Part shown: positions 21,165-64,000 of the stretch, one piece after another
Layout of the letters: every line of letters starts with the position of its first letter
Position numbering within the stretch: the stretch's first letter is position 1
Assembly: GCA_008330645.1 (NCBI GenBank)
Contig: VLTN01000070.1
Span: 62,001-126,000 of the forward strand
Source of the DNA: Cafeteria roenbergensis
Taxonomy: Eukaryota; Sar; Bigyra; Bicosoecida; Cafeteriaceae
Reading direction: 5' to 3'
DNA length: 64,000 nucleotides
Translations under genes and position numbers: made by a program
Notes under the pieces: model-generated
The model's database searches: none
Seen by the model: the letters and a program-made list of their open reading frames with translations, nothing else
What the model was told of the DNA's origin: nothing

Positions 21165-21195
<31 letters not shown>

Positions 21196-27100: not shown

Positions 27101-27737
27101 GGAGGAGGAGGAGGAGGAGGAGGAGGACCTCGACGACGACGACGACGACGACGGCGCGGGAGACGTCGACGACGACGACGAGGACTACAAGGCAGCCGCG
27201 AAACCGCGCGTGCGAAACCGCAGCCGGTCCAAGACCCCGGCGAAGAAGCAGGCATCTGCGGGGGCAACCACGCCCTTCTCCAAGGCCGCTGCCAGCCGGC
27301 CGTCGCGAAGCTCTGCCAAGAAGGGCAGCGCAGCGGGGGCGGCTTCAGCGTCCCGACGGCGCAGCAAGCGTCCGCGAAGCCGGTCCAGCCGGGCGGCGGA
27401 CGACGACGAGGACGAGGACGACGAGGACGACGAGGATGACTTCCAGGCTCCCGCCCCTCGCACAAGCCGCAGCGGGCGCAAGGCCAAGTCCTCTGCCAAG
27501 GCGAGGGCGGCCGCTTTGGCAGCGGCCCAGGCGGATGAGGCCGAGGAGGACGACGAGGAGGACGAGGAGGCGGCGCAGGCGGCGCCTGCCAGCAAGCGCT
27601 CGCGGCGCGCCTCGTCAGGCCGCCGCCGAAGCTCTGCCACACCTGCTGCCACCAGCCGAGAGCTGGCGGCCAGCGACGTGGGCGTGGGGGCAGACGGCGA
27701 GATCGATGTCAAGCACGGCGACACCGTGCGCTTCTGA
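19122..27737 (+). CDS. CHD-type chromatin remodelling ATPase
   Basis: Single open frame of 2,871 residues. Two chromodomains lie at about residues 90-165 (YQYLCKFADFSFLHCDWLTF) and 178-245 (FLVKWETLSYAQSTWELE). The SNF2 ATPase N-lobe starts near 1839: LRDYQVQGLNFL, Walker A DEMGLGKT, VVDEGHRLKG (DEGH where CHDs usually have DEAH) and MLTGTPLQNN. The helicase C-lobe is at about 2219-2360 (LIFSQF, STRAGGVGINL, SHRIGQ). Together they define a nuclear, DNA-dependent nucleosome remodeller. Unusually, about 1,590 residues separate chromodomains from ATPase; in typical CHDs this linker is roughly 100-200 residues. The linker contains an RG-repeat (about 631-665), Asp/Glu runs, Ser/Ala runs and scattered helical segments. 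The C-terminus is acidic and basic in alternation (KKQASA, RRRSKRPRSRSSR). The CHD subfamily (1, 3/4 or 6-9) cannot be decided by eye. Confidence 0.93.
21014..21226. repeat. RG-repeat and Asp-repeat coding tract
   Basis: GGCCGC/GGGGCG-type hexamer repeats coding (GR)n at about 21014-21115 (an AT-hook or RGG-like nucleic-acid-binding tract by composition), followed by GAC/GAT repeats coding a 20-residue acidic run at about 21160-21220, within the CHD gene. Confidence 0.85.
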
Positions 27738-43312: not shown

Positions 43313-46300
43313 TCAGCAGTCAGCTGACTGGGCGGCCCGGGGCGGCTCGCAAGCGTAGCAGCCAGCGACGTCAACATCGCTGCCAAGGTCTTGCAGCTCT
43401 TTGATGGCCGACTGGACGGCATCGGAGTCCTCGGAGCCGAGCAGCTCGATGAAGAATCGGAACACGCCGCCCGCGCCGGCGCCCCTGGCGAAAACATCAG
43501 CTGCCGATGCCGCGACTGGCTGGATTGCGCTGCTGGTGCTGGCCAGGCCGGACAGCCCCTCGGCGTCGGCGGGGAAGCTCTCAATCTTGGTCATTGAGAG
43601 CCCGAAGCGCGAGAGAATGCTCAGCGCCGCGACAAGCGCGCCTGGCCGGTCCCGGAGGCCGAGCAGCAAGGCGGTCTTGCGGGGTCCAGTCGCTGCAACC
43701 ACGCGACCGGGCACGGCCTGCGGCGGGCGCTGCAATCGCAACAGCGCGAACCGGCCGATTCCGCCGGTGCCCGCAAGCCTGTTGACGATCTTGCGGAGCC
43801 CAAGGCGCTCTGCGGAGAGCGGCGGCGCGACTGCCACGGACACGCCGGCGGACGCCCCCATGCGCGATGCGTGGGCAACGGGGGGCGGGCCGGCAGCGGC
43901 GACGGCCGCGGCCGCCTCCTCCCCGCTCGCCGTCGGGTGGGCCTGCAGCGGCACGCCGGCGCCCAGCATCGCACGCAGCGCGGCCAGAGCGGGCACCGTG
44001 TCGGCGGCCGCGCAGAAGACGTGCACCACCACGGCGGGAGCGGGAACGCCTCCCGAGCGCTCCACGAGCGCGGCGCCGCCGCTTCCCACCGTCGCCGCGG
44101 CGTCGGCCACCATCGCCAGCGAGTCCACGTCAAGCCCTGGGTGCGCGCAGATGCAGGGGGAGGTGCTGACGGACATTTCTGCCAGGATGCGAGGCCTGGG
44201 CTCGAGCGCGCCGGCGACGCGGCCGACTCTGGCCAGCTCGCTAAGCAGCGCTCGCAGCGTGTCGCGGTCCGCCCCGTGCCGGCTGGACTCGAGCTGCACG
44301 ACGGCGGCGTCGGCCGCGCCGGCGCGCAGGGCAGCGAGCGCCGCGGTCGCCGACGCGACCGGCACGCTGGCGACCCCGCACCCCCCGCACAGCAGGCGCC
44401 CCGCCTCCTCGGCGAAGCACCCGGGGGGGCCGGGGTGCGCGACTCGCGGCAGGCGGCCGGTCGGTCCCGCGCTGCTCACAGCCTCGGCGGTCGCGGCCGC
44501 AGCCACGCGCTGCAGAGCCGCCATGGCGGCGGGCGGCAGCGGCGACCAGCTTCCGGCAGAGCCGCTCGCAGAGTAGGCGGAGGTTGCGTCAGTGACCCGC
44601 CGCAGCGCCGCGGCGGCCTGGCTGGCAGTGGCAGGGTCAGTGCGCGAGTCGTCGGCAATGCGGGCCAGCGCCGTGGCGTGAGCCGAGCGAGCCCGGATGG
44701 CCGCCACGACAGCCCGGTCGGCGCTGGTGATGGCCTCCGACGCGGCGGTGACCAGGTCCTCCGCGCACGCGTCGGGCCCGCGCCCGTCGGCGACCTCCTG
44801 CGCGCGCGCCCCCTCCGCGGCCGCCAGGTGGCCCGCTCGGCAGAGCGCCTCCGCGGAGGCCGCCGCCTCCCCGGCGCCGTCGCCCCCGGGCGGCGGCGAG
44901 GCGGCGCCGTCCCTGTCAGCGGCAGGGTTGGCTGTGGCCGCCTCGTACGCCGCGCGCGCCGCCGCCGCCATGCGGGCCTCCGCGGGCTGCCGGCCGGTCC
45001 ACAAGCGCTGCTGGGCCGCGCCCTGTGCCGCCAGCATGTCCAGCCCGTACACCACCTCGCACCCCGCAGCGGCGGCCTGCGATGTGAGGGCCGTGTCCCG
45101 GGGAATGTAAGCCGCCTCGACCACGGCAGGCAGCGACGCCAGCAGCGACGGCGGCAGCTCCACCTTGGCCGCCGCGGGCACCGTGGAGACCACGCAGGCG
45201 AGCGGGACGGCGCAGTCTTGTAGGGAGGCGAGCGGGGAGGCGCCGGCCGCCTCGGCCACCGCCCTTGCGCGGTCGGCGGTGCGGTTCCACAGCTGCACGC
45301 GCAGCCCCAGCGCGCGGAGGGCAAACACGGCGGCGCGAGCCGTTCCGCCCGCCCCGATCACCAGCGCGAGGGGCGCGGCCGGGGCGGGGCTGCGGCCGCC
45401 GGACTCTCTGGCGTCCGCAGCGGCGCCGGTGCTGGCGCCGGTGCCGACCGCGACCGCGTCGAGAGTGACACGGCCGCGCCTGCGAAGGGCGGCGGCCAGC
45501 GGCAGCGCGATGCCGATCCAGTCCGTGTTGTGGCCCACGAGCAAGCGGGACGACGCGCCGCCGGGCACGGGCGCCACCTCGCGAACAGCCACGGTGTTAA
45601 CGGCGCCGATTGCCGCCGCCTCGGGGCCCAGGGCGGCCAGCAGCGGCCCGGCCAGCCGTTCCTTGAGCGGGATGGTGACGGACGCGCCGCCGAACTCCGG
45701 CCGGGCCACCACGCGCGCCACGGCGTCGACGTCCTCTGTGTCCTCGAGCGAGTAGGAGTGCGGGAGGGCGGCTGCGGCGAAGGCCGTGGAGTGCATCGCG
45801 GGGGAGGGCGAGAGACGAATGGGGCTGCCGAAGAGGCAGAAGCTGGCTGGGCCGGCCGCCGCGCCCAGGGAAAGGCCGAGCGACGCGCGGTGGCGCTGCA
45901 GCTCCGGCACGGTCAGCTGGCCGGGCGCAGCAGCGCTGGGAAGGAGGTCCGACGTCGCGGGCGTCAGGACGGAGTTGGCCACGCGGGAGGCGCGGCCGCG
46001 CGCGCCCATAGCGAGGAGGATGGCGGGGCGGCCTGCCGCTGCGGCGAGTGGCTCGCAGGCGGCGCGGAGGCTGTCGACGTCGGCGGCAGTGCGGGCGAAC
46101 GTGACGAGCTTCACGACGTCGGCGCCTCGGCCGGAAGGATCGAGGTCCTCGGCCAGCCCTGCCGCGAAGGCTTCCCGCAGCTCCGACGGCGTGGGCTGCG
46201 TGGCCGGATCCGGCCAGTGCCGGGACACAATGACACGGCAGCGCCCCTGCCCCGCTCCCCCGCCGCCCCCACGCGCCGCCGCGAACACGGCCTCCACCAG

Positions 46301-49300
46301 CTCCGGCGCGAAACCGCGCTCGACGTCCACGAACTCTGCGCCCGCAGCCACGCCCGCGCACAGGAGGGCGGCGGCCGCGGACTCGCTGCCAGCGAAGCGC
46401 CCGCCCTCGGCGGCGGAGCGGACCGTCCAGACGACGGGCAGCCCGGGGCAGGCGCGCCGCACGCGGGCCAGCTGGCACACGGCGAAGCGGCGGGCGGCGG
46501 CCTCCAGGGAGGAGGGGTGGACGGCGAAGGTGGAGCCGGCGGCGGTGGCGGCGGCGGCGACGGGCGACGACGGGTCCCATGCGGGGTCCACGCCGCTCGC
46601 GCTGGCTCCGGCCGGACACCCCGCGAAGGGGGCGAGGAGGTCCACGCGCAGCTCTGCTGCGTCGCTGCCGGCGGTAATGGCGCGAATCGCGGCCCTGTCG
46701 GCTGCGGGGGTCGCGACGGCGGCCGGCGCGTCGCCGTCCCCCACGCCAGCGCCAGCGCCAGCGCCAGGGACGGCCGGCCCGAGCAGGAGGCGGCCAGCTC
46801 CGGCCAGGTCTGGCAGGGTGAGCGACACAAAGAACGTTCCCGGAGAGAGGGCCAGCAGCGCGGGGTCGCTCAGCGACTGCGCGAGGGACGGCTCTGCCGC
46901 GGCGAGGGCCGCCAGCTGCTGCGGGGAGGCTGCGGCAGGACCCGGCGCCGGCGCGAGCGACCCCGCAAGCTCGCCGAGGACGCCGTCGAGCGCAGGCTCG
47001 GGCACTCCCGGGATGGCGAGCGGCGAAACCGCGAGGCCTGCGGTGCGGAGCACGGCGAGGGCCGCCTCCGCGAGCGCGGCCCTGGGGTCCGCGGGAGACA
47101 CGTCGTCCCCGCCGCCCAGGTCAAAGGCGGTGGGCGCGCTGGCGGGGTGGTCGGCAGCCGGGTCCACCACCACCGTGTGCGTGGCGCACTGCTCGAAGAG
47201 GGGGTAGCGGCGGCGCCAGACCGCGGCGAAGCTCTCGCCGCCGCCGTACGCTGGCCGCAGGCTGTCGGTGGAGCCTGTGGCGGGGGGCGCGGGGGCTTCG
47301 CCGAGCGGGACGTCGAGGTCGTCCGCGATGGCCGCCGCGTCGCGGTCGAGGAAGAGGACGACGTGGCCCCCGGTGACGGGCGCACCCGCTGCCGCGAGGA
47401 GCTCCCTGGCGGGCTCCGTCTCGACGATGCCGCCCCCACAGGAGATGACCGCGTGCGTGGGGTGGGCTGCGAGCACGTCCGCCAGCACCTCGGTCTCGAG
47501 CCGGCGGAAGCCGTCCCAGCCCGCCGAGGCCACGATCTCGGCCACAGAGCGGCCGCCGGCCGCCGCCTGCACCTCCGCGTCGACGTCGATGGCCACCCAG
47601 CGGCCGGCGAGGCGCCCCGCCAGGTTGCGCGCGAGGGTGGTTTTGCCTGCCCCTCGCATGCCGATGATGAGGACGGAGCGGGACGCGGCCTGGCCCGCCC
47701 TGGACGGCGCGGCGAGCGTGGCCGCGGCGCCCACGGACGTGCCCGGTCCGGCCGCGATGACCGGCACTCCGAAGTCGTTCTCGAGCATGTCCCAAAAGGC
47801 CGGAAACGTTTTCTCCACGCACAGCGGGTCGTCGAGCACCATGGGGGAGAAGGCCGCCGCGGCGGGCGAGGAGGACTCAGCGGCGAGGGCGGCGGGGGAC
47901 GGCGCGGCGGCGGCGACTGCGCGGCGGGCCGTGACGGCGGCCGCCCCCAGCAGGGCGAAGCTCATGGCCACGCGGTGGTCGTCGTAGCAGTGAACGGTGG
48001 CGCCGCTCACGCCGGGGCTTCCCGGGGAGGCGCCGGGAGCGCGCCCCGCGATCTCGATGCCGTCGGCCAGCTCTGCCGCCGCCGCGTTGCACTTTGCCAG
48101 CTCACGCACCAGCGCCCCGATGCGGTCGCACTCCTTGAACCGCTGGTTGCTCACGCCCACGATGGCCGTGCGGTCCTGGCCGGGGGCGGGGCCCGGGGCG
48201 CAGAGCGGACCGAGCGTGGCGGCGGTCAGGAAGGTGTCCGTAATGTCGCCCATGTCCACCTCCCCCGGACACCGCAAGCCCCACCAGCTGGCCAGCCCGC
48301 CCTCGCCCTCCTGCGGAGCAGGCGGCCAGACGGTCGTGGCCGCCTCGTCCCGCTCCACCCGGCAGCCCATCTTGGCAAGCACCTCCGCGAAGGCGGCGTC
48401 GCCCTGCTCGCTGGCGGAGCCGACGCCCTCAATGCGCACGGGCCGGCCGGTGGCTGCGGCCAGGGCCAGCGGGTAGGACGCGGACGACGCGTCGGGCTCG
48501 ATCAGCGCGAAGCCGTCCGCGACGTCCTCCGCAGCTGCGGCTGCTGCGGTGGGGTCGGGCTGCTCGGGGGGCCTGTAGGTGCCCGCGTGGACGCAGTAGC
48601 GGTTGGCAGCGAGCTCGTCCACCTTGGCGCCGAAGCGCCGCATGACCGCCAGCGTCATCCTGATGAAGGGGAGGGACGTCGGCGCCTCCTCGTCCAGCTC
48701 CAGCAGGAGGGTGCCCCCCGCCGGGGCGGCGCAGGGAGCCGCGATGAGCACCGCGCTGACGTACTGGGAGCTGAGCCTCGCGGCCAGGCGCACCGTCGTG
48801 GCGGGGATGCCGCCCCCGCTGAAGAGCAGGGGCGGGCACTCGGACCCCGGCAGCTCGTGGGCCACGCGCGACCCGGCGGCGGCGAGCGCGTGGACGAGGG
48901 GCGCGATCGGCCGGAGCCGCATGCGAGCGTTGCCGTCGAGGCGGGCCACGGGGCGGCCGTCCTCGCGGGCTGGCAGCAGGCACAGCGCCCCGGTGAGGAA
49001 GCGGGCGGCGGTGCCGGCGTTGTTCACCCACAGGGTCGGGACGGCGTCGTCGCCGTCGCCGCCGGCCGCAGCTGAGGCGGCGGCCGACAGCCGAGGCTTG
49101 CCCGCCGTGCCAGTCACCAGCAGGTCACCGCCGCTCCACCGTAGGGACGCCCCCATGGTCTCCAGCGCGGCCATCATCACCTCGGTGTCGTCGCTCTGCA
49201 GGAGGCCCCGCACTCGAGTGGTGCCCTCGGCCAGCCCCGCCAGCAGCAGGACGCGGTTGCTGAGGCTTTTGGACCCCGGGAGGCGCAGCGAGACCGGCTC

Positions 49301-50734
49301 CGCGGGCTCCACCGGCCGCGGGGGGATGCCCACGGCGACGTGCTGCGCGCACAGGCGAGCGAGGAGGCGGTGAGGGACGGCGTGGGCGAAGGGCGGCGAG
49401 CGGACGGATCCCACCTCCTCGAGGAGAACGCACTTGATGGAGACGCTGGCGGGGGCGAGGCGGTCGCCGGCGGACCAGGAGAACCCCGGAGCGGCGCCGG
49501 GCGGGGGCGGGGCAGCCTCCCCGTCGAGCGCCCAGCGCGGGACGTCGGCCGCTCCGCTGGGCGCCTCGGCTGCAGCGGCCGCCGCCGCCGAGTCGTTCTT
49601 CTTGTCGTTGGTCATGAACCGCATCACCTTGTCGACGCGGGCGCGCGCCGGCACGCGGACTGGCAGGCTGTAGGCTCTGAGCAGCGAGCGCAGCCGGCTC
49701 ACGGCTGCGCCGCCGTCCCTGCACGCCCCCATCGCGCGCGCTGCCTCCGCCTCCTTGACCATGCCCACCGCGACGCACTCGCCGTGGAGCCAGTCCGGCG
49801 CCATCACGGCCTCAATGCCGTGGCCGACGGTGTGCCCGAAGTTGAGGATGGCGCGGAGGCCCCCCTCCCGCTCGTCCTCCGTCACGACGCGGCACTTGAC
49901 TGCCGCGGCGGCCGCCACCAGCTCGCCCAGAGCTTCCGGGTCCTTCCTGGCCACGGCGTCCGCGAGCTCCTCGCACCGGCGGAACAGCGCCGCGTCCGCG
50001 ATGGCACCGGCCTTGATGATCTCCGCCATGCCGTTGTTCACCTGCCGCTGGGGCAGCGTGGAGAGGACGGCCATGTCGGCCACGACCGCGCTGGGCTGGT
50101 GGAAGGCCCCCACGAGGTTCTTGCCTCCCGGCGTGTCGAGGCCCGTCTTGCCCCCGATGGAGGAGTCCACCATGGCGAGCAGCGTCGTGGGGACCTGCAC
50201 CACCGGCACTCCGCGCATGAACGTGGAGGCTGCGAAGCCCGCCAGGTCTCCCACCACCCCGCCGCCAAAGGCGACCACCACCGCGGCGCGCGTGCAGCTC
50301 TGCTGCAGCATCCAGTCCTCCATCGCCTCCTTGCTCTCGCGGGTCTTGCTGGCCTCGCCGGGAGGGAGCTGGAACACCGGCGGCGGCGATCCCGCCGACA
50401 TCCACGCGCGGACCGGCTTCCCGGCCGACTTGGCGGCGTCTGCCGCGCCCGCAAACGCAGCAGTCAGCGCATCGCCCCAGAAGCCCCACACCTGCGAATC
50501 CGTGATGATCACAACCTGGCCAGCCTTGGGGCAGAACTCGGACACTGCCGCGGGAACCTGGTGCAGCACATCGGTGCCAACCCGCACAGTGTACGCCCGC
50601 GGAGTGCCAGGGTAGCACACGGCCTCGAACACGCTGCCCTTGGACTGCGGCCTCGCCACGCCGCCCGCATGCGGGGTCGCGGCCTCCGGCCCGGCCGCCG
50701 CGGGCGTGCTTTCGTCGCTGGGGAGCGCAGCCAT
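43313..50734 (-). CDS. AROM pentafunctional shikimate enzyme fused to CM/PDT/ACT-like module
   Basis: Single open frame, 2,473 residues. Domains: 3-dehydroquinate synthase about 25-420 (FGGGVVGDLAGF, DSSIGGKTG, FGHTVGHG); EPSP synthase about 475-990 (LPGSKSLSNR, NNAGTAARFL, DGNARMRLRPI, DDHRVAMSF); shikimate kinase about 1015-1230 (GMRGAGKTT, SCGGGIVE); type I dehydroquinase about 1295-1580 (IVSRHW His, DVVKLVTFA Lys); shikimate dehydrogenase about 1625-1925 (SPSPAMHS, SVTIPLKE, GHNTDW). Together they convert DAHP to EPSP in the cytosol, as in fungal AROM (about 1,600 aa). About 550 extra residues follow: a chorismate-mutase-like helical stretch (about 1985-2085, AIRARSAHATALARIADD), a prephenate-dehydratase-like region (about 2090-2330) and an ACT domain (about 2345-2465, RDRPGALVAAL, MTKIESFP). 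The dehydratase TRF motif reads GRF. The start at 50734 is chosen because homology begins within 30 residues; the open frame continues upstream into the divergent bS21 gene. Confidence 0.93.
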   Translation of the reverse strand: MAALPSDESTPAAAGPEAATPHAGGVARPQSKGSVFEAVCYPGTPRAYTVRVGTDVLHQVPAAVSEFCPKAGQVVIITDSQVWGFWGDALTAAFAGAADAAKSAGKPVRAWMSAGSPPPVFQLPPGEASKTRESKEAMEDWMLQQSCTRAAVVVAFGGGVVGDLAGFAASTFMRGVPVVQVPTTLLAMVDSSIGGKTGLDTPGGKNLVGAFHQPSAVVADMAVLSTLPQRQVNNGMAEIIKAGAIADAALFRRCEELADAVARKDPEALGELVAAAAAVKCRVVTEDEREGGLRAILNFGHTVGHGIEAVMAPDWLHGECVAVGMVKEAEAARAMGACRDGGAAVSRLRSLLRAYSLPVRVPARARVDKVMRFMTNDKKNDSAAAAAAAEAPSGAADVPRWALDGEAAPPPPGAAPGFSWSAGDRLAPASVSIKCVLLEEVGSVRSPPFAHAVPHRLLARLCAQHVAVGIPPRPVEPAEPVSLRLPGSKSLSNRVLLLAGLAEGTTRVRGLLQSDDTEVMMAALETMGASLRWSGGDLLVTGTAGKPRLSAAASAAAGGDGDDAVPTLWVNNAGTAARFLTGALCLLPAREDGRPVARLDGNARMRLRPIAPLVHALAAAGSRVAHELPGSECPPLLFSGGGIPATTVRLAARLSSQYVSAVLIAAPCAAPAGGTLLLELDEEAPTSLPFIRMTLAVMRRFGAKVDELAANRYCVHAGTYRPPEQPDPTAAAAAAEDVADGFALIEPDASSASYPLALAAATGRPVRIEGVGSASEQGDAAFAEVLAKMGCRVERDEAATTVWPPAPQEGEGGLASWWGLRCPGEVDMGDITDTFLTAATLGPLCAPGPAPGQDRTAIVGVSNQRFKECDRIGALVRELAKCNAAAAELADGIEIAGRAPGASPGSPGVSGATVHCYDDHRVAMSFALLGAAAVTARRAVAAAAPSPAALAAESSSPAAAAFSPMVLDDPLCVEKTFPAFWDMLENDFGVPVIAAGPGTSVGAAATLAAPSRAGQAASRSVLIIGMRGAGKTTLARNLAGRLAGRWVAIDVDAEVQAAAGGRSVAEIVASAGWDGFRRLETEVLADVLAAHPTHAVISCGGGIVETEPARELLAAAGAPVTGGHVVLFLDRDAAAIADDLDVPLGEAPAPPATGSTDSLRPAYGGGESFAAVWRRRYPLFEQCATHTVVVDPAADHPASAPTAFDLGGGDDVSPADPRAALAEAALAVLRTAGLAVSPLAIPGVPEPALDGVLGELAGSLAPAPGPAAASPQQLAALAAAEPSLAQSLSDPALLALSPGTFFVSLTLPDLAGAGRLLLGPAVPGAGAGAGVGDGDAPAAVATPAADRAAIRAITAGSDAAELRVDLLAPFAGCPAGASASGVDPAWDPSSPVAAAATAAGSTFAVHPSSLEAAARRFAVCQLARVRRACPGLPVVWTVRSAAEGGRFAGSESAAAALLCAGVAAGAEFVDVERGFAPELVEAVFAAARGGGGGAGQGRCRVIVSRHWPDPATQPTPSELREAFAAGLAEDLDPSGRGADVVKLVTFARTAADVDSLRAACEPLAAAAGRPAILLAMGARGRASRVANSVLTPATSDLLPSAAAPGQLTVPELQRHRASLGLSLGAAAGPASFCLFGSPIRLSPSPAMHSTAFAAAALPHSYSLEDTEDVDAVARVVARPEFGGASVTIPLKERLAGPLLAALGPEAAAIGAVNTVAVREVAPVPGGASSRLLVGHNTDWIGIALPLAAALRRRGRVTLDAVAVGTGASTGAAADARESGGRSPAPAAPLALVIGAGGTARAAVFALRALGLRVQLWNRTADRARAVAEAAGASPLASLQDCAVPLACVVSTVPAAAKVELPPSLLASLPAVVEAAYIPRDTALTSQAAAAGCEVVYGLDMLAAQGAAQQRLWTGRQPAEARMAAAARAAYEAATANPAADRDGAASPPPGGDGAGEAAASAEALCRAGHLAAAEGARAQEVADGRGPDACAEDLVTAASEAITSADRAVVAAIRARSAHATALARIADDSRTDPATASQAAAALRRVTDATSAYSASGSAGSWSPLPPAAMAALQRVAAAATAEAVSSAGPTGRLPRVAHPGPPGCFAEEAGRLLCGGCGVASVPVASATAALAALRAGAADAAVVQLESSRHGADRDTLRALLSELARVGRVAGALEPRPRILAEMSVSTSPCICAHPGLDVDSLAMVADAAATVGSGGAALVERSGGVPAPAVVVHVFCAAADTVPALAALRAMLGAGVPLQAHPTASGEEAAAAVAAAGPPPVAHASRMGASAGVSVAVAPPLSAERLGLRKIVNRLAGTGGIGRFALLRLQRPPQAVPGRVVAATGPRKTALLLGLRDRPGALVAALSILSRFGLSMTKIESFPADAEGLSGLASTSSAIQPVAASAADVFARGAGAGGVFRFFIELLGSEDSDAVQSAIKELQDLGSDVDVAGCYACEPPRAAQSADC

Positions 50735-51045
50735 GGGTTCAGCTGTGACGGCGCCGCGGATTTTCGCGCCCGCAACTTGAACGAGGCGGGTCACTCGGGG
50801 GCCGAGGACACGTCCGCTCGGCACCTTGCGGCGGCGGAGGCGACTGCACGCGGGCTCCCGTTCGAGGGGGCGGCTCGCGACGGAGTGGCTCCCGCGCCCC
50901 GGCGCGCGCGCGGGGCCCGCATCCGCGGCCACGCAGTTGCCTCGCATGGCAGAGCCGCGCGTCGCGCGCAAGGAAGGGCAAAGCAGGCGGCGCTTGGCCG
51001 ATCGCGCCCCGGCCGGCAGAGGCGGCGGCGCTGCACTGCTGGGAC
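50735..51045. promoter_or_regulatory. Divergent promoter, AROM fusion (-) / mitochondrial bS21 (+)
   Basis: 311 bp between start codons of two housekeeping genes transcribed in opposite directions. No core element is recognised. One GGCAGAGC octamer lies at about 50948-50955. Confidence 0.5.
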
Positions 51046-51753
51046 ATGGCCCTCGCCCGCCTGGCCTGCGCCGCCCGCCCGGCCGCGTGCGCTGCTCGCG
51101 CCGCGGCTGTGCCGCGCGCGGCATCAGCCTTCGCCGGCGCCCCGGTGCGGGGCCTCAAGGTGTTCGTCAACGACGTGAACGCAGTGTCCGCCGTGCAGGA
51201 GGTGAGTCCTGCGGCCGGCGCCTGCGCCCTGGGACTGGCGGCGCGCGCGGGCTGGCGCGCCCGTCGTCGACGCCCCGCAGGCGCGGCTCTGCGCACGGCG
51301 GGTGCTGCTGCCTGGGCGAGTTATCGGCCGGCCCTTGCCCTCTGCGGCGTGCTCCGTCCCTGCTTCTGCCGCCACCCCCCCCGCTCGGGCACTCTCCCGC
51401 CCCGCCGCGACGCTGCCCGCAGGCCAAGGTTGACTTCCGCGCCAAGCAGGGCGTGAAGGACATCAACAAGCGCAAGCGGGAGAGCCGGGTGAGTCCTTGC
51501 GGCCCAGCGCGGCGAAACGGCGGGCTTCCATCTCGCGATGCCGCGGCGCCGTCGTGCCGCAGTCCCCGGGGCCAAGGGGCGATTCCGCGTGTGCGTTCGA
51601 GTGTTGTGGGCCCGGCCGTCGCAGTACTACATCAAGCCGACGAAGCAGCGCGAGGGCGCGCGGTCCAACAAGACGTTTTACACGGGCGTGCGCGAGGTGG
51701 AGACTGTCATGGCCCGTGTGCTGGACGAGCACAAGAACGTCGGCTTCGGATAA
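51046..51753 (+). CDS. Mitochondrial small-subunit ribosomal protein bS21m
   Basis: Three exons, 51046-51201, 51423-51488 and 51625-51753, all phase 0, giving 116 residues. Each junction uses GTGAGT and CAG. The first 34 residues are Ala/Arg-rich without acids (MALARLACAARPAACAARAA), a mitochondrial presequence. The core LKVFVNDVNAVSAVQE / KDINKRKRESR / YYIKPTKQR follows the bacterial bS21 pattern (VRVxVNENEPxxxALRRF … RRxxYxKPSxxR), a protein at the platform of the small subunit near the mRNA exit. About 35 residues beyond the usual end (TFYTGVREVETVMARVLDEH) form a C-terminal extension. Lysines and arginines dominate as expected for a ribosomal protein. Confidence 0.85.
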
Positions 51754-52257: not shown

Positions 52258-55200
52258 ATGAGGCGGGCCAAGACCAGAACCCGTCCGCTGGACATCTACA
52301 AGCGCATGCCGATCCTGCGGAAGCAAGACGAGCTCCCTATCGACGCGGAGACGGTCGATTCGGCGGTGGTTGTGAGTCGAGGCGAGCGTCCCCGCACTCC
52401 AAACGGTCTTCCTGCGCGCCAGGGCCGCGCTCGCGCCCAATGCCACCCTGCAAGGTGTTTCGTGTGCGCGCGCTGGCATGAACTGCAGAGAATCGGCATC
52501 GTGGACCTCCCTGTTCCCGAGGTATCGGCGGTCGACACCTACGAGGAGGAGACCAAAGGCGGCTTCAAGCCGCCCAGGCCGTACATCAGGCACAAACCGG
52601 GCACACAGATTCGTAGCCTCACCTGCGAGTACGAGGCGGACCACGACGACGAGGTGAGAGTCGCGGGGCGCCGTCCAATCGCGGCGGAGGCTCGCGGACG
52701 CCGTTGGGGTCCCCTCCTGCTGTCCGCGGGCCTGGGGCACGCTCCCGGTCCTGTTCAGCACCCCCGCCCCGCTCCAGGGGATGCGCAGTCGGTTCGGCGC
52801 GGGGCGTTGTGGGAACCCTTCTGATCGCGCTCGGCTGGGGTCCGGCCGGCGGACTGGCTGGCGCCTCGGACGCCAGTGCGCCGGCCCGTATCCCACCCCC
52901 GCCAGTGGAGGCGCGTGCAGCGGGTCGGCACGTGCGTGCGTGCGTGCGTGCGCGCGCGCATGCAGCCCGTCACTTTGGCCGCGAACCCTGCCGCTCGCTG
53001 TCCTCTGCCGCCCCGCCCGCTCCGCCGCCGCGCCGCAGGCATGGCTCAAGACCCACGCCAAGTTCGGCACCGGCAACGACTCCGCCACGCGCCTGAGCCT
53101 CGACCTGTTTGAGCGGGTCATGGACGCGCTGGAGCAGGAGGCGGGCCGCACTGATAGCATGCCGACGCTCACGGAGGCCAGCCGCGTCGTCGCGGAGCGC
53201 ACGGGACTCAAGCGCACCGGCGCCAACTCCACGCTCGATGACGTGTACACCTACTGGCGCCGCAAGCGCGAGCGCCTGAAGAAGCCCCTCCTCCGCCGCT
53301 TCTGGCCTCCCACCAGCGAGAACAACGCCGACCCTCACGCCACCTTCCGCCAGCGCACCAAGGAGCGGTACAGGCTGCGCCGCACCAGGCGCTCCGACGA
53401 CATGGCCTCCTACCGCAAGCTCGCCGACGTCCGGCAGACGCTGGCCCGCGCCATGGCCTTGCTGGATATGGTCCACACCCGCGAGCAGGCCAAGCTGGAA
53501 CTGGCCCGCATCGCCGTGGACTCCTTCGAGCAGGCCGTCTTCGAGGCGACCGACACCACGGGCACCACTCGCACCCCGCCCGTGCTCCAGACGAGGCGCT
53601 TCGAGCGCACCGCGGCGGAGCACGCCGCCGCGTCCCGCGCCCAGCGCCTCAAGAACAAGGGCAAGCGCCGGCAGACGCGCACCACCTCCAGCGCCACCAC
53701 CGCCGCCCACACCCTCTACAAGCAGGCCATGGCCGCCCTCAACCCCGCCCAGCACGCCGAGCGCGTTGCGGCGCTGCAGGGCGTGACGGGCCAGATGGCC
53801 GCTCAGCACGGCGCCAGGGCCGCCTCGGGCAAGGTCCCCGTCCCCTTCCGCACCGGCCCGTGGCGCGCGCCCTTCTTCACGGCGGTGCACCCCGCGGCCG
53901 GCCTCGCCTTCTCCCGCTGGCCCCTCGCCCCCACCGCGGGCGACCCGGACGCCAGCCGCGTGGGCCACTCCGACGGCGAGCTCGAGGACGTGGCCACCGC
54001 CGCCGCGCTGCTCGCCGCCGCCCCCAACGGCGCCCCCGTGGCGTGCAGCCTCTCCGTCCTCCAGGCGCACGGCGGCGTGGCGGCCACGCCGCCGCCCCAC
54101 GCCCTGTCGGTGCACGCCAGCGCCCTGGAAGGCCGTCGCTCCGTCGCTCGGATGCGGGACCGCGGCGCCCTCGTGCCGCTCGGAATGGGCGGCTCGGGCG
54201 CCGGCGAGGCCGAGGCCGACGTCCTTGGCCTCGGCGCGGCCAGCGGCCTCCCCGTCGGCTTCGAGCGCGACGAGCAGCTTGTGGCGGACCTTCTGTGCGG
54301 CCGGGGCACCAACGCCTCGGCCGAGATGTGGCTGCACCAGCGCCGCCCCGCGCTCCACGTGGACACCACAGCCCGCCTGCGGGCCCTCATGCTCCAGCAC
54401 CGCACCACCAACGTCAGCGCCACCCTCGGGATGGTCACGCCTGGCAGCGCGTGGGAGGAGGTGGCCGGCCTCGCCCTCGGCGTGGGCTCCCTCGGAAACC
54501 ACGGCGAGGGGTGGGACCTCACCGGCCACCGGCCCCAGCTCCGCTCCCCGGACATGCTCGAGGCGCAGGAGTGGCGCGTGGTGGCTGCCGTCGCCCACAC
54601 CGCCGCAGTGAACCGTCAGGCCCGTCGCCAGGCCGAGGCCTCGGCAGCCAAGGCGGCCAAGACGGCAGCGCTCCTGGCTCAGCAGGAGCAGCAGCAGATG
54701 CAGGGGACGGCCTCGTCCTCCCTTGGCTCCACCCCGCCGGCGGCCGCGGCCGCCGAGCTCGCCCGAACGACCGCTGCCGCCGCCACCGCTGCCATTGCGC
54801 ACTCGCGCTCCGAGGCGCCCATCCGCATTTTGGCAGGCTCGGCTCGCACGCACGCCCCCCCAGCACCCTACTCCTCCCTCGACCACGTGGCGGTGGCCAA
54901 GGCGCTCACCGCTCCCGGGACGGAGGAGGCGGAGGAGGGAGCCGACGTCGACATGGAGGGCGGCGCTTCGAGCGCGCCCCCCGCCCTTTCGTGGGAGGAG
55001 GAAGAGGCCCTGCTCTACCTCGAGGAGGAGCAGGCCATCGCAGACGAGCAGGCCGCCCGGGACACCGACGCCGCCGCTGCAGCAAGCGCTGCGGCCGGCT
55101 CGGCTCCGCAGGCGGCGCCCGGCAAGGCGAGGTCGGTTTCGCGGCGAGGCCCCCCCTCGCGGCGCGGCAGGGACAAGCAAGCCGTCATGCCCTCGCCCGC

Positions 55201-55341
55201 GGCGGCCGCCGGCACTGCCACGGGCGCCGGCGAGACTCTTGCCTGCGGGTCTGCGGGCGTCGCTGCCGCTGCTTCGCCTGCTGGAGGGGCGGCGGCTCGT
55301 GACGACGACGACGAGGTTCGCGCCGCCGCCAACAATGACGA

Positions 55342-55373
<32 letters not shown>

Positions 55374-56791
55374 ATGGCAGCGACGCCGCCCATGCTGGCT
55401 CTGTGGTCCCTGCCGCCGAGGGCTGGCCGCTCTCCAGCCAGCGAAGGTGCCGGGAGGAGGTGTCTCGGCACGCCGCTGCGGCCGCTTCTGAGGCTGGTGC
55501 GGGCGGCTGGGCGACCGGCCGCCACGCCGATGCCCCCGCCACGTACATCACGCGCGCGCGTGTCGGGCGCGGCGGGCGCGTGTGGGTGGACCGCGTGTCT
55601 GCCCCGGCTGGCTCGGACCTGGGGCAGCGCCGTCGGGCCGCGTTTGCGGACGTGGCCGCCCGCGACGCGCTGCGCGCTCGCGAGGAGGCAGAGCGGGCCG
55701 CCGCTGGAGGGGCGGAGGCCGTGGCCGTGGCCGCGGCGCGCGCTGCCGGCTTCGAGCCGCCGCAGTCCGGCCACCTGGCCGCCGCCGTGTGGCAGGCCGG
55801 CACGCGGCCGCGGCGCGGCGACGACATGTCGGAGGCCCTGGGTCTGTCGGCGGGCCTGGATGCGCCGGAGCCGGGAACCCTCCACTCCACGCTGGCCGCC
55901 GCGCTGGGGCCCGCCGCGGGCGGCACCCCGCCCAGCGGTGCGGGCGGCGACGCGGCCGAGGCTGCGGGGGCTTGGACGTGGCAGGTGCGCTCGAGGCTGC
56001 TCGACGCCTCCTCGGCCGTGCTGGCCGGCGGCGGGGCCACGGGCACGGTGGGGGGCGGGGCGAGCAGGGAAGCCTTCAGCCTGGCCGCCGGAGCGGCCCA
56101 GCTGGCGGGTGCGCACGGCGGCCACGGCGCGAGGATGCTGCGGCGGCTAGCCGGCCTGCCGGCCGGGGCGTCTGCTGGCAGGGCGGACGGCGGCGTGCGG
56201 GCCTCGCCGGGCAGCGGGGCCGGCGGCATGGCGCCCGTGGCCGGAAGCGGGATGTGCTCCGACCTCCACAACGTGGCCTTGCCAGTGCCGACGGGGCACG
56301 CGGTTGACTCCCGCGCCTGGCCCTGGCTGGCTGGGACGTCTGGCGCACTGCCGCCCGCCGGGCACCTGGCCGCGCCAGCCTTCACCTCGCACACCGGCCT
56401 CATCGCCCAGCGCCTCGGCACGCCCGAGACGCTCCAGCACACCAAACCAGTGAGGCCCAGGAGGCTGGAGCAGGTCTACCTGGGCGAGGACAACGCGGAC
56501 TCCGAGCTGGTGGAGGCAGAGGACGCTGCGAAGAGCGAGCTGGCGCACGCGGCAGGCACGGCTTGCCCCGGCGGCGTGGGGAACGCTGCAACGATTCGAG
56601 GTGTCGCGCTCTCCGTGGGCGCTGCGGTGGACGAGGGGTCGGGGCCGCAAGCCGCTGCCTTGGAGGCGTCGCCTGGCACTTCGGGCGACGACGAGGGGTT
56701 CTGGGCTCGCGCGGTTCGGGCCGCGCGCCCCAGCAGCGTGATCGAGCAGGCGCAACTTCTCTCCCGCGCGGCGATTGACATGGCTGCGTGA
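52258..56791 (+). CDS. Enhancer of polycomb-like protein (EPL1/EPC)
   Basis: Exons 52258-52371, 52489-52653 and 53039-56791, phase 0 throughout, 1,343 residues. The first 270 residues match the EPcA domain: basic start (RRAKTRTRPLDIYKRMPILR), EYEADHDDEAWLKTH across intron 2, LFERVMDALE, VYTYWRRKRERLKKPLLRRF, PPTSENNADPHATFRQR and YRKLADVRQTLARAMALLDM. In yeast and animals this domain bridges the NuA4/TIP60 histone acetyltransferase module (Esa1-Epl1-Yng2-Eaf6) to nucleosomes. Intron 1 (117 nt) is stop-free and in frame. The C-terminal 1,000 residues are Ala/Gly/Asp-rich and unrecognised, with a short conserved-looking block near 1200-1250 (LIAQRLGTPETLQHTKPVR). It is the second chromatin gene in the window, with the CHD remodeller. 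Confidence 0.9.
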
Positions 56792-59519: not shown

Positions 59520-60863
59520 TCACGCCAAGATGACCTTGCGGAGAGTGAACTTGGCCTCTACACTGCTCGAGGTGAGCATCCGGCGCCAAGGCCAGCTGCA
59601 CAAGAGCAGCGTGGACAGCCAGAAGCAGCCGAACGACAGCCAGCACGGCTTGGCGGTGGGGTCGGAGAGCGCGAGCACGTTGGTGCGGAACCCCCTGATG
59701 CGCATGTCCCAGTTGTGCGAGAAGTGGGAGTCGCGCCAGCGGTTCCTGGCCTGGAAGGCGGAGTAGGCCATGACGAAGGCCCGATGGGAGGCGTCGTCGT
59801 TCCACACCACCAGCTTGTACAGGCGAAGCTTCACGATGGCGTGCAGCGTCATTCCGTGAAACGGCCCGCTCTCGTCCTTCCAGGCCCTGTACCTGAAGTA
59901 GTCCGTCTCCCTGTATGTGGTCACCTGCGCAACAACGGCCTCACAATGGCACGGCACGGCATCACGCGGGAGGCTCTCGCGACGCGCAAAAGTCGACGGG
60001 TCCAGGACAGCCGGCTGTCGAATGCAGATGGCGAAGCGGCGCGCATCACAGCTGGCCTCTGCTCCACCAGGGGCCCTGGGGGTTGGGGAGGGGGTTGGTT
60101 CCCGCCCTCGCCCGCTCACCTTCACCGTGTACGACTCCGTGCGAGTGGTCGTCCGGCCGTTCGAGTCCGTGCTCGTGACAGTGCGGTAGCGGGTCTCGTA
60201 GTGGTAGCACTCGCAGGTCATGGCCACGTCTGGCGGCGTGTCGACCATCTGGCTGAGGAACGCCTCGGCGCCGGCCACGTCCTTGAAATTGGACATGTAC
60301 TTGCGCGAGTCCGAGCAGCAACTCTCGATCAGGTAGAAGAGGTACACCACGCCAAACACCCCAGCGGCAATGGACGGAAGAGCGGCGTTGACGTCGTCGT
60401 TCGGGTCGTCGCTGTAGTCGTCGTGGTACACCCCGGGGGTGGGGGAGCTCGAGTCCTGCATGGCCTCGGACGCGATGATGAACCCAAGCGCTCCCAACAC
60501 GAGCAAGTTGCAGAACCCGCTCCGGTAGTGCGGCGTCGACGGGTTGGAAATCTTCAGCTCCGACGGGATGCCGATGGCCACAAAGTTGATGGTGTCGCGG
60601 ACGCCAGCGTTTGTGTTTTCGGACATGGCTTTGGCGATTTCTGCCGGATCGACCGAGGCTGGCGGCGCGCTCGGGCCAGGCGCGCTCGGCATGGCCCCCC
60701 CGGCAAGCCCTGCATTGACTGCCGCATCAGGAACATGCGCCTCCTTCCATGCTGCGGGGTCTGCCATGGGGGCGGACGGCACGGGAATGCCGCCCGAGAC
60801 GCCGGCCGGGGTCGCCGCGCCAGGCATGAGGGGAACAGCCTCGTCGTTGGACTTCCAAGCCAT
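59520..60863 (-). CDS. TMEM151-like membrane protein
   Basis: Two exons, 60863-60120 and 59924-59520, 382 residues. The intron (195 nt) is stop-free and in frame; it begins GTGAGC, ends GCGCAG, and its removal joins ESYTVK to VTTYRETDYFRYR. Two membrane segments lie at about 114-133 (CNLLVLGALGFIIASEA) and 160-180 (SIAAGVFGVVYLFYLIE), and a third at about 338-358 (CWLSFGCFWLSTLLLCSW). The loop TPPDVAMTCECYHYETRYR…GRTTTRTESY strongly recalls TMEM151A/B (TPP…CYHYD.R.R), followed by the FRYRAWKD…DDASHRAF region. The N-terminal 95 residues are Pro/Ala-rich. TMEM151 proteins are of poorly known function in animals; the family is widespread in protists. Confidence 0.78.
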   Translation of the reverse strand: MAWKSNDEAVPLMPGAATPAGVSGGIPVPSAPMADPAAWKEAHVPDAAVNAGLAGGAMPSAPGPSAPPASVDPAEIAKAMSENTNAGVRDTINFVAIGIPSELKISNPSTPHYRSGFCNLLVLGALGFIIASEAMQDSSSPTPGVYHDDYSDDPNDDVNAALPSIAAGVFGVVYLFYLIESCCSDSRKYMSNFKDVAGAEAFLSQMVDTPPDVAMTCECYHYETRYRTVTSTDSNGRTTTRTESYTVKVSGRGREPTPSPTPRAPGGAEASCDARRFAICIRQPAVLDPSTFARRESLPRDAVPCHCEAVVAQVTTYRETDYFRYRAWKDESGPFHGMTLHAIVKLRLYKLVVWNDDASHRAFVMAYSAFQARNRWRDSHFSHNWDMRIRGFRTNVLALSDPTAKPCWLSFGCFWLSTLLLCSWPWRRMLTSSSVEAKFTLRKVILA

Positions 60864-61198
60864 GGTTCCAGCGAGCCGCGCGCAGGCGCCAGGCTTGGAC
60901 TGCGCTGGCTGCGGCGCCCTGCAGTGCGCAAGGCCTGCTGTCTGGAGTGGCTGCCCCGCGACAAGGCTCGCTTGAACTTGCGCTCTGCTTTCTGGAACTT
61001 TTCCAATGCTGCGCCGGGCGACACGTTGTGGCCGTAGTGCGCGCATTGACGCAGAGGGCCCCACGCGCCCCGCCGGCGCGCACACAACGCACGCCCCTGG
61101 GCAATCGCTGTGACGCGCGCAGCTGGTGCTCTTGCTCGCCCCGATTGCTAGCTCTCGGCGCCGCCTCGCTGGTTCGAGCGGCACGCAGTCATCACTCG
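60864..61198. other. Intergenic region, FIH-like 3' end to TMEM151-like 5' end
   Basis: 335 bp between two minus-strand genes; no gene or clear element is seen. It presumably holds the TMEM151-like promoter. Confidence 0.4.
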
Positions 61199-64000
61199 TC
61201 ACCGCTTCCAGCCGCAAAGCCTCGCCACGGCTACAATGTCGCCCGTTGACACGGCGGCGCGCATGCGCGGATGGCCCAGGTCCTTCCCCATCGCCGCGGC
61301 CACCAGCCCGCACAGCACCGCCCGCTGCGTTGCTGCAACGTGGAACGCCGTCGTCGTTGCCGCTCGGCGCGGCAGGTCGAACCGGCCGGCCACCAGCGCC
61401 AGCAGGAACTCCTGCCCCTCCCCCGGCGCCAGCACCTTTGAGAGAAGCAGCAGCGCGTCCTGCCGCGCCCGCTGCTCCACCTCGCCGAGCGGCAGCCCCG
61501 CCTGCAGGCGGAACAGCAGGTCCACGGCGCGGCAGGGCCCCAGCGTCCGCATCAGCAGCCGCTCCAGGTTGCGGCACAGGATGAGCCGGTCGGGGCTGTC
61601 GGGCGCCAGCGGCAGAGGCATGTCCACCGCGGCCGAGCACCGGTGCCAGAAGTTGACCGACACGGAGTCCTCCCACGGGCTCTCCACGTGGTGCCACCAG
61701 TACGCCGGGATGAAGAGGACGTCGCCCGGCTGCAGGACGGTGTGGGAGAGGCACGACCGCCTCCACAGCGGGAACCGCCACAGGTCGGGGTCGCGCGGGC
61801 ACACCTGGCTCTGTCGGTCGCAGGGGTGGCCCACGGGGAACGGGTAGAAGCTCTGCCACTGCTCGGGCCCGCCAAGGAGGACCAGCTTGCGGCCGCGCGC
61901 CTGGCAGAGGAGGTTGTGCTGCTCGTCGTAGTGCAGCGGCGTGACGGCGCCCCGCTGCGCGATGAGGAGGAGGTTGGTCGTGAGCGCGCCCCACTGGCCC
62001 TCAGACTGCAGCCGCGAGACCAGCGCCCAGTCGAGGCCACGGAAGTCGCGGATCATCGGCTGCCCCACGCCGTCGCAGAGGGCTTGCTGGAGGTACACCC
62101 GCTCGACCGGGAGCGCCCCCGGGGCGCGGAGGCAGCGGCCCGCAGCGGGAGCAGCGGCGAGCCTGCCTGCCAAGGCCGCAGCCCCGGTGCCAGCCGAAGT
62201 CGCCGACGGGCCGCGGCCGGCCGCCAGCCGCGCAGCCCCCACGGCCGCGCCCGCCGCTCCGCCGCCGACGTCGCCCTTCTCGCCAGCGTCGTGGGCAACC
62301 TCCGCCTGCGCCGGCCCCGCCCCCGCAGCCGCCGCCGCCGCGTCTGCGCTGTGGTTGCGGCGGTCGCCGTCGCTGCCGTCGTCGGCGGGGTTGTCGCCGA
62401 CAGCCTCAGACGCGCCCCCATCGGTGTCGGAGTCCTCCTCCTCGTCCGACATGGGCGTGGACGCCTCGCTCCCAGGGTGCGCCAGGCTCCCGACCCCCCC
62501 GAGGCGCCTCCAGATGAACCGGGCGGCGGCTGCGTCCTCGGCCATGGATGACAGCATCGCGTCAGTGGCAGTGGCAGGGCTCGCAAACCCCGCCGGCGTG
62601 CCAGCCATCCCTACCCCGCCGGCAAGCCGGGACAGTGCACGGCGGATATTGTGCGGCACTGCGCGTCGCGCGGTTCGAGTTCCCCCGCCCCCGGGGCCAG
62701 GCTCAGCCCCGGCCCCAGCCTCGCCGCTCGTGCCAGCCCCACTGGCGTGCCTGGCTCGAGGGGCAGCCGGCCTGCTGGCCTGCCCAGCTGCGGCGCGCGC
62801 TGAACGCCCCGGGCGTGATCGCGCCGCTCCCCCCCCGGGGCCGTCCATCGCGCCAGTTTCCGGCTCGTACGGCAGCCAGTCGCCCCCGCGCGCTCCTTCC
62901 GCCACCGCCAGCGCCTCCGCCTGCGCTGCGCCCGCCGCCATCGCCACCGCCACCGCTGTCACTCGGCACGCCGCCTCCGCCACGTTGGGCGACCCCTCCT
63001 CCCCACCCAGGCCAGGGGCCGCGCCGCTCGCCCCCCGCGGCGCCGCAGACGCGGCATGCCCCGCAGCGGGCGCGGTGCAGAGCGCTCTGGCCCAGTCGAC
63101 GCCCCCCAGGCCGTCGCTCTCGGGCGCCACCAAGGCTTGCACCGAGGCGCTCCCGCCCTTCCCACCGGCCGCGGCCTCTGCTGTCGCGGCAGCAGCTGCT
63201 CCCGCCCCATCTGCCGTTTCAGTTGCTGAGGCTTTGGTTGCCGCAGTCGCTGCCAGAGTAGCAGCAGCAGGAGCAGCAGCAGCAGCCGCAGCAGCGGCAG
63301 TCGCTGCTTCCGCTGCTGCTGCGGACGACGGTGCTGATGGCCCCTCAGGAGCGGCCGTCGCGTCAAGCGCCCCCTGCTCTCCTCCCGCATCGTTCGCCAG
63401 CTCTGCCGGCAGAGCAGGCGGGGCTACGCCTTCGCGCGCCCGCATGGCGGCGAACGCCCGCTCTCTGGCCGCCGCCTGCAGCGCCCGCAAGCGCGAACGG
63501 GAGCGCCACTCCGAGGGCGAGGGCGCCAGGCCCGCTGCTGTGAGGGCAGCGGCCGCCGTTGAGGGGTCCACCGGGCTGGGCTCCTCGGAGCTTCCCGCAA
63601 AGGGCACGCGCCCGCCGTCCAGGGCGCAGTGCGCGTGCATCTCGGCGGCGAATCCTGCCATCGGAAGGGTCCGGCTGTGCATGGGGTCGGCGTGGTCGAA
63701 GCTGCGAGCCGGCGGCGGCAGGAGCGGCGGGGGCGGGCAGAGCCCGGAGGCGCACAGGGCGATGCAGGAGTGGCGGGCGGGCGGGCCTTGGTTCCACGGC
63801 TGGCCGCGGAGGGGTCAGGCGGATCGAGCCCGCTGCGACAGCCGGGCGCGGGCGGTGGCGCGCGCGCGTGGCTCACCCTGACTCGTTCTTGTCCTCGTCC
63901 GCGTACCGAAAGCTGCCGCTGGAGAAGCGCACCGTGAACTGCACTCCCTGCGCGTGCTTGGCGAGGTAGTCCAGGGTCCAGCGGCGGCGAACGGGCTCGA
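61199..64000 (-). CDS. FIH (HIF1AN)-like JmjC asparaginyl hydroxylase, 5' partial
   Basis: Exon 63701-61199 preceded by an exon from 63877 running off the window. The upstream exon reads RRRWTLDYLAKHAQGVQFTV…FRYADEDK, matching FIH LKWDLEYLQEN…YYDEKK. Its donor GTGAGC and the acceptor CTCGCAG are in matching phase 2. The core has YLQQALCDGVGQ, GALTTNLLLIAQRGAVTPLHYDEQHNLLCQ with iron ligands His and Asp in HYD, the FIH signature FPVGHPCDRQSQV, and GDVLFIPAYWWHHVES with the distal His. The C-terminal dimerisation helices (LLLSKVLAPGEGQEFLLAL) are present, then about 55 extra residues. FIH uses 2-oxoglutarate and O2 to hydroxylate Asn in ankyrin-repeat proteins and HIF. About 500 Ala/Gly-rich residues are inserted before YLQQ, where FIH has a short loop. 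Confidence 0.88.
63400..63415. repeat. 16-bp perfect palindrome GCTCTGCCGGCAGAGC
   Basis: Two inverted copies of the over-represented octamer GGCAGAGC meet head-to-head, inside the low-complexity insertion of the FIH-like gene. Confidence 0.95.

Follow-up and report, generated by a model that had tools for sequence, protein, structure and literature searches.

A gene of Cafeteria roenbergensis very likely encodes, in one chain, the pentafunctional AROM polypeptide of the shikimate pathway followed by a tail that resembles the prephenate dehydratase (PDT) and ACT domains of bacterial P-proteins. The fusion, the homology of the tail, the absence of conserved PDT residues and the partial retention of ACT effector motifs are features read directly in the sequence, and from them we infer AROM activity, ligand binding, dimerisation and the direction and target of regulation. 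What is newly found here is that the PDT part of this AROM tail looks catalytically dead. We give an even chance to the explanation as a whole, namely that a catalytic AROM carries a pseudo-P-protein tail as an aromatic amino-acid sensor.

The AROM part and its continuation into a tail

The gene lies on the minus strand at 43313..50734 of the window (the whole stretch of 64,000 nucleotides that was analysed), and is described here as a single exon encoding the five AROM domains plus a pseudo-P-protein tail, on the basis of its open reading frame, its translation, its codon use and the lack of a GTGAGT donor. Counted from the Met at 50734, the protein has 2473 residues, with the stop codon at 43313-43315. 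From stop to stop the frame spans 43313..51154 on the minus strand (2613 open codons), and the gene start is not established because further in-frame Met codons are found upstream of 50734.

Pfam models matched the chain in the order 3-dehydroquinate (DHQ) synthase, EPSP synthase, shikimate kinase, type I 3-dehydroquinase and shikimate dehydrogenase, which is the AROM order, and the best matches among solved structures were the AROM polypeptides 6hqv (E = 6e-230) and 7u5s (E = 3e-199). All domains are encoded on the minus strand. The DHQ synthase domain (approximately residues 36-383; 49586..50629) aligned with 6hqv and reached 342 bits with the NCBIfam aroB model (cut-off 305), while the EPSP synthase domain (approximately residues 436-995; 47750..49429) reached 298 bits with aroA (cut-off 287) and matched PF00275 at E = 3.6e-70. 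The shikimate kinase domain (approximately residues 1015-1190; 47165..47692) matched PF01202 at E = 1.3e-24 and contains the P-loop GMRGAGKTT as well as GGG and RRYPLF. For the type I 3-dehydroquinase domain (residues 1350-1613; 45896..46687), PF01487 gave E = 1.7e-30, and the region of the Schiff-base Lys, VVKLV, aligned to 6hqv. The shikimate dehydrogenase domain (approximately residues 1628-1931; 44942..45853) matched PF08501 and PF18317 and could be aligned with 6hqv up to the AAQG..LWTG end. Only aroB and aroA passed their NCBIfam equivalog cut-offs; the other three domains were above the Pfam cut-offs and below the listed equivalog ones.

The motifs kept in the 6hqv alignments are those that we take to be the AROM active-site motifs, their presence having been checked by eye: the His region and Lys of DHQ synthase, PGSKS, NAGTA, KECDR and DDHR of EPSP synthase, the kinase P-loop, the Lys region of 3-dehydroquinase, and K, NTDW and AAQG of shikimate dehydrogenase. 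Their retention suggests that the five AROM activities are probably intact. The chain does not end where an AROM would, and runs for approximately 545 residues past shikimate dehydrogenase without a stop.

Openness of the frame was rejected as proof of the fusion. The GC content of the window is approximately 72% (mean taken by hand; 2-kb windows span 66-78%), and GC-rich DNA of this kind lets an unrelated plus-strand frame inside the AROM gene stay open for 1283 amino acids. Because open frames come so cheaply in this DNA, codon use was tested instead: a codon table was trained on AROM residues 120-1927, and the remaining sequence was scored with it. In the AROM frame the score was +0.30 bits per codon for residues 1928-1990, +0.27 for residues 1991-2097, and it stayed positive throughout the PDT and ACT parts, with segment values of 0.23 to 0.33. 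The two other minus-strand frames were negative across the linker, residues 1991-2097 and the PDT and ACT segments; one opposite-strand frame ranged from approximately 0 to +0.18 in the tail, with similar values along the AROM part. Held-out coding domains of neighbouring genes gave window medians of 0.15 for a kinase (lowest window -0.04), 0.30 for a tubulin-tyrosine ligase and 0.61 for SNF2, with negative scores in the wrong frames. Four neighbouring introns scored between -0.82 and -0.10 in all six frames (for three of the four, the ends used were off by one or two bases), and the DNA beyond the stop codon of the AROM-tail gene was negative as well. The linker itself (residues 1932-1988; 44771..44941, minus strand) is Ala-rich, of low to middling pLDDT and coding-like in its codon use.

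It is most improbable that AROM ends after shikimate dehydrogenase and that tail and AROM are two genes joined by misassembly, a lost stop or an undetected splice. Such a reading could draw on the fact that the fusion is read from genomic sequence alone, on a hand estimate that the 170-codon gap would be open by chance in about one case in ten at this GC content, and on residues 2051-2097, where the codon signal is weakest (+0.13 in the AROM frame versus +0.10 in one opposite-strand frame). It sits poorly with the codon use of the linker, which is coding-like in the AROM frame, unlike that of introns or of the DNA past the stop, and with the splice signals: the four neighbouring introns, placed by eye, begin with GTGAGT in three cases and GTGAGA in one and end in CAG, whereas a GTGAGT donor was absent from the AROM-tail ORF, in which the five GTGAG-type sites are all GTGAGC. 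The gene is most simply read as a single exon. The earlier note had claimed five canonical AROM domains with active-site motifs, which the Pfam order and the 6hqv alignment bear out, and one chain in which AROM is followed by PDT and ACT in P-protein order, with which ORF, profiles and codon use agree.

PDT-like, ACT and AroQ-like segments of the tail

The tail contains a prephenate-dehydratase-like domain that has lost conserved polar residues (residues 2097-2335; 43730..44446, minus strand), recognised by Pfam, NCBIfam, BLAST and fold matches, and an ACT domain with an insertion of approximately 30 residues (residues 2352-2461; 43352..43681, minus strand), recognised by PF01842, alignments and the structure model. 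When the 544-residue tail was scanned alone, the PDT model PF00800 scored 28.9 bits (cut-off 25.2; residues 2098-2209) and the ACT model PF01842 scored 29.4 bits (cut-off 27.0; residues 2355-2391); in the whole chain the latter fell to 24.6 bits, below its cut-off. For comparison, most canonical bacterial PDTs reach 150-230 bits when scanned with the Pfam PDT model. The NCBIfam prephenate dehydratase model PRK11898 matched the tail at E = 3.4e-20 with 72.4 bits, short of the equivalog cut-off of 219. All five matches up to E = 10 in a PDB sequence search with the tail were named prephenate dehydratase, and a BLAST alignment with E. coli PheA (b2599) was colinear over both domains and extended to the terminal GCY, with 22% identity at E = 5e-9.

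An AlphaFold model of the tail was built with 20 bacterial P-proteins in the alignment, and its fold is for this reason not independent of the homology claim. Mean pLDDT was 69.8, with low values in the linker and the ACT insertion, and averaged at least 70 in 27 of the 37 ten-residue blocks that cover model residues 161-530. The best 16 PDB matches found by Foldseek were chains of eight PDT-family entries, several with bound Phe, and the TM-score by target reached up to 0.84 for PDT-family matches. Some of these matches carry other titles: 7am0 and 7alz are entered as the acylase GqqA, and 3luy, a 'putative chorismate mutase' by title, can be aligned to PheA over its PDT-ACT part.

For a comparison of conserved residues, 137 loci were read, of which L001 was omitted and L002 replaced by E. 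coli PheA, so that 135 remained; dropping sequences shorter than 240 amino acids or at least 70% identical to one already kept left 50 PDTs including that of E. coli, all of them bacterial. The tail keeps 21 of the 33 columns that are conserved in at least 85% of these 50 PDTs: 11 of 19 in the PDT part, 10 of 13 in ACT (E. coli positions 298-376) and the single CM column not at all. One of the ACT columns, P376, is kept but lies in a gapped stretch. In the PDT part eight columns are lost, six of them at N160, D171, Q215, C216, N276 and T278 and the other two at V146 and P157. None of the five conserved polar positions is kept, with N160 replaced by S, D171 by R, Q215 by A, and N276 and T278 by G; these positions were selected post hoc, from the alignment already seen. 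All five are present in 42 of the 50 bacterial PDTs, four in 4, three in 1, two in 1 and one in 2. The catalytic TRF triad is represented in the alignments by GRF (residues 2327-2329; 43748..43756, minus strand). The charged residues E159, E183 and R279 are retained, as is F280 of TRF. An insertion makes the alignment around the SHPQ motif uncertain, but the translated tail as a whole contains no SHPQ string.

TRF is described as critical in substrate binding and catalysis in the available part of PMC10845154, and a Thr to Ala change in TRF abolished the activity of a fungal PDT, according to the part available of PMC11980547. With its conserved polar residues gone, the tail is unlikely to make phenylpyruvate, and loss of PDT activity is predicted with good confidence. 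An intact bifunctional P-protein was rejected, conserved residues being lost in both the PDT and the CM parts.

Among the bacterial PDT homologues themselves, L104, L105 and L107 have V, I and S, respectively, in place of the TRF Thr, and in L107 no more than one of the five polar positions is retained; these three are possible pseudoenzymes or may have other activities.

Between linker and PDT-like domain, residues 1989-2094 or thereabouts (44453..44770, minus strand) tentatively represent a three-helix AroQ-like remnant, as indicated by an AroQ profile and by helices in two structure models. The profile was made from 35 bacterial AroQ domains, which score themselves at 66 to 113 bits. It gave 7.5 bits with residues 1930-2104, the highest score in a set of 1000 sequences whose other members were 998 shuffles (none above 3.4) and one reversal. 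Over 558 pieces from all frames of the window the segment likewise ranked first, with two overlapping pieces near it and the next piece at 1.6. Both models contain three helices here, the last at low confidence. An intact AroQ domain is not supported: Pfam CM_2 (PF01817) gave no match up to E = 10 with residues 1985-2105 alone, the fold search with a single-sequence model returned six matches up to E = 10, none of them below 0.001 and none an AroQ, and hhalign assigned the segment a score of 17.8 (best of 100 shuffles 15.95) with a probability of 2%. In the alignment to E. coli CM, R28 is kept as R, while K39 is replaced by A, R51 by Q and E52 by A; these four we take to be the catalytic residues of E. 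coli CM. We regard the AroQ part as a possible relic.

The earlier note had likened the whole tail to a bacterial P-protein and had named three profiles for it. PDT and ACT stand, in P-protein order and with matches to PF00800 and PF01842 when the tail is taken alone, whereas the polar PDT residues are lost, CM_2 found no match and AroQ left only a weak signal.

The two effector motifs of the ACT domain have fared differently. GALV (residues 2365-2368; 43631..43642, minus strand) is kept exactly in the alignments, while ESRP is represented by ESFP (residues 2385-2388; 43571..43582, minus strand). Both are ACT ligand motifs (PMC10845154, available part), and alterations of ESRP are stated to desensitise the E. 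coli enzyme to aromatic amino acids (PMC11980547, available part); given the change to ESFP, Phe binding may therefore be lost. Of the 50 bacterial PDTs, one has ESFP (L089) and one has ESY for ESR (L135). After ESFP, the ACT hairpin carries the insertion of approximately 30 residues (43460-43570, minus strand), which has low pLDDT and no GTGAG-type donor. We slightly favour the view that the ACT domain has kept ligand binding, in which case the ligand would be phenylalanine or some other aromatic amino acid.

Proposed role of the tail and alternatives

On the best-supported reading, a P-protein gene would have been fused behind AROM, whereupon its catalysis would have decayed and ACT would have kept a role as sensor. 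A working AROM would carry DAHP to EPSP, and the tail would consist of a possibly vestigial AroQ bundle, a catalytically inert PDT fold and the ACT domain. An allosteric role of the tail seems the likeliest: a ligand bound at an ACT dimer interface would be signalled via the inert PDT domain, altering AROM activity or assembly, and the end product would thereby throttle the trunk of the pathway. A phenylalanine-branch sensor within the AROM chain, as the earlier note proposed, can fairly be inferred; that a dead P-protein acts as aromatic amino-acid sensor and sets the flux through shikimate steps 2 to 6 is put forward tentatively, at somewhat less than even chances.

A purely structural role of the tail is unlikely. 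The inert PDT and ACT domains would then form a scaffold through which the chain dimerises or to which chorismate synthase, chorismate mutase or DAHP synthase docks, and would sense no aromatic amino acid. Altered ESRP, the long hairpin insertion and a fold retained despite the loss of conserved polar residues would all suit a scaffold, but GALV and the ten kept ACT columns are more than a mere scaffold seems to need. The retained PDT fold, together with R279 and F280, is also consistent with an improbable alternative, in which the PDT cleft took on a new function and now senses or holds a pathway intermediate (chorismate, prephenate, EPSP or shikimate) instead of an amino acid being bound at ACT. 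That a PDT-fold quorum-quenching acylase exists (GqqA, from the title of 7am0) speaks in its favour; Ser, Ala, Gly and Gly at N160, Q215, N276 and T278, respectively, argue against the binding of a dicarboxylate.

If the tail were instead an active prephenate dehydratase using other residues, the chain would be a multifunctional enzyme with one more activity. PDT and ACT are indeed recognisable across their length, yet GRF in place of TRF, the loss of all five polar positions, a score of 72 bits where the equivalog cut-off is 219 and the inactive fungal Thr to Ala mutant (PMC11980547, available part) make this very improbable. Lost polar residues and Ala-rich insertions are what one might see if an old fusion had left behind a functionless tail that is now decaying neutrally. 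Approximately 545 codons free of stops and frameshifts, 21 of 33 conserved columns kept and a preserved codon bias count against decay, and we regard a relic as quite improbable.

Feedback in this pathway normally acts on DAHP synthase and on the chorismate branch, as stated in the available part of PMC11843938. Should the sensor reading be true, control would move onto the pentafunctional trunk, apart from the controls at DAHP synthase and the chorismate branch point, and it would follow that a fused enzyme whose catalysis has become redundant can turn into a regulatory domain. The fusion would also mark a protist lineage, if common to it.

Related systems and genomic neighbourhood

The Cafeteria chain shares its five domains, their order and their active-site motifs with fungal-type AROM (6hqv, 7u5s), to which it adds approximately 545 residues with PDT-like and ACT domains after shikimate dehydrogenase. 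With the bacterial P-protein PheA (AroQ-PDT-ACT; E. coli b2599) it shares colinear PDT and ACT domains and possibly an AroQ remnant before PDT; in contrast to PheA, the tail sits behind AROM, lacks N160, D171, Q215, N276 and T278 as well as CM K39, R51 and E52, and has ESFP for ESRP. Three further systems are described in the available parts of the respective papers. The DAHP synthase-AroQ fusions of B. subtilis and Porphyromonas (PMC5526877, PMC12202928) likewise place a domain of post-chorismate type on a shikimate-trunk enzyme, but in their case the trunk enzyme is DAHP synthase, and CM belongs to a bifunctional enzyme. In the archaeal CM-PDT-prephenate dehydrogenase (PMC11237513) a P-protein is likewise enlarged by fusion; as presented there it comprises post-chorismate steps only, without AROM domains. 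The TrpC-TrpF of Leucomyxa, a likely pseudoenzyme (PMC11528492), is a case of a protist that likewise keeps a catalytically dead protein of aromatic biosynthesis, in the tryptophan branch and, in that account, without an AROM fusion.

AROM itself is known from prokaryotes, fungi, apicomplexa, ciliates, oomycetes and Euglenozoa (PMC7052976, available part) and from Physarum (PMC4758236, available part). Among the titles and abstract openings of open-licence PubMed Central papers, none was found that joins AROM to PDT or ACT; an AROM with a PDT-ACT tail could well have been annotated somewhere already without comment. A search with the last 395 residues returned no relative among viral contigs and no match among plasmids; among the 50 matches listed for predicted viral structures there was no entry named PDT. 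With the whole protein, viral contigs yielded one weak match resembling shikimate dehydrogenase, on an IMG/VR contig (L001: 8001-8219), at 34% identity to residues 1656-1742.

In a domain scan, neighbouring ORFs carried tubulin-tyrosine ligase, a chromo/SNF2 pair, F-box, kinase and JmjC/cupin domains, which identifies the window as eukaryotic. A very long CHD-like ORF with chromo and SNF2 helicase domains lies at 19077-27737 on the plus strand. Beside the AROM gene, a divergent small gene (51046-51753, plus strand) has two introns as judged by eye, with GTGAGT starts and CGCAG ends; its product resembles what we take to be a mitochondrial ribosomal S21-type protein. The gene at 52258-56791 on the plus strand presumably encodes an enhancer-of-polycomb-type protein, although the ORF at 52658-56788 alone had no Pfam match at E = 0.001. 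For Cafeteria, approximately 70% GC and 1.67-1.89 introns per gene are reported in the available part of PMC6972860, which the window resembles in its GC content and in having introns. At 59520-63814 on the minus strand, a TMEM151-like ORF and a cupin_8/JmjC ORF lie on the same strand in different frames and overlap at 61199-62000; they are probably separated by splicing.
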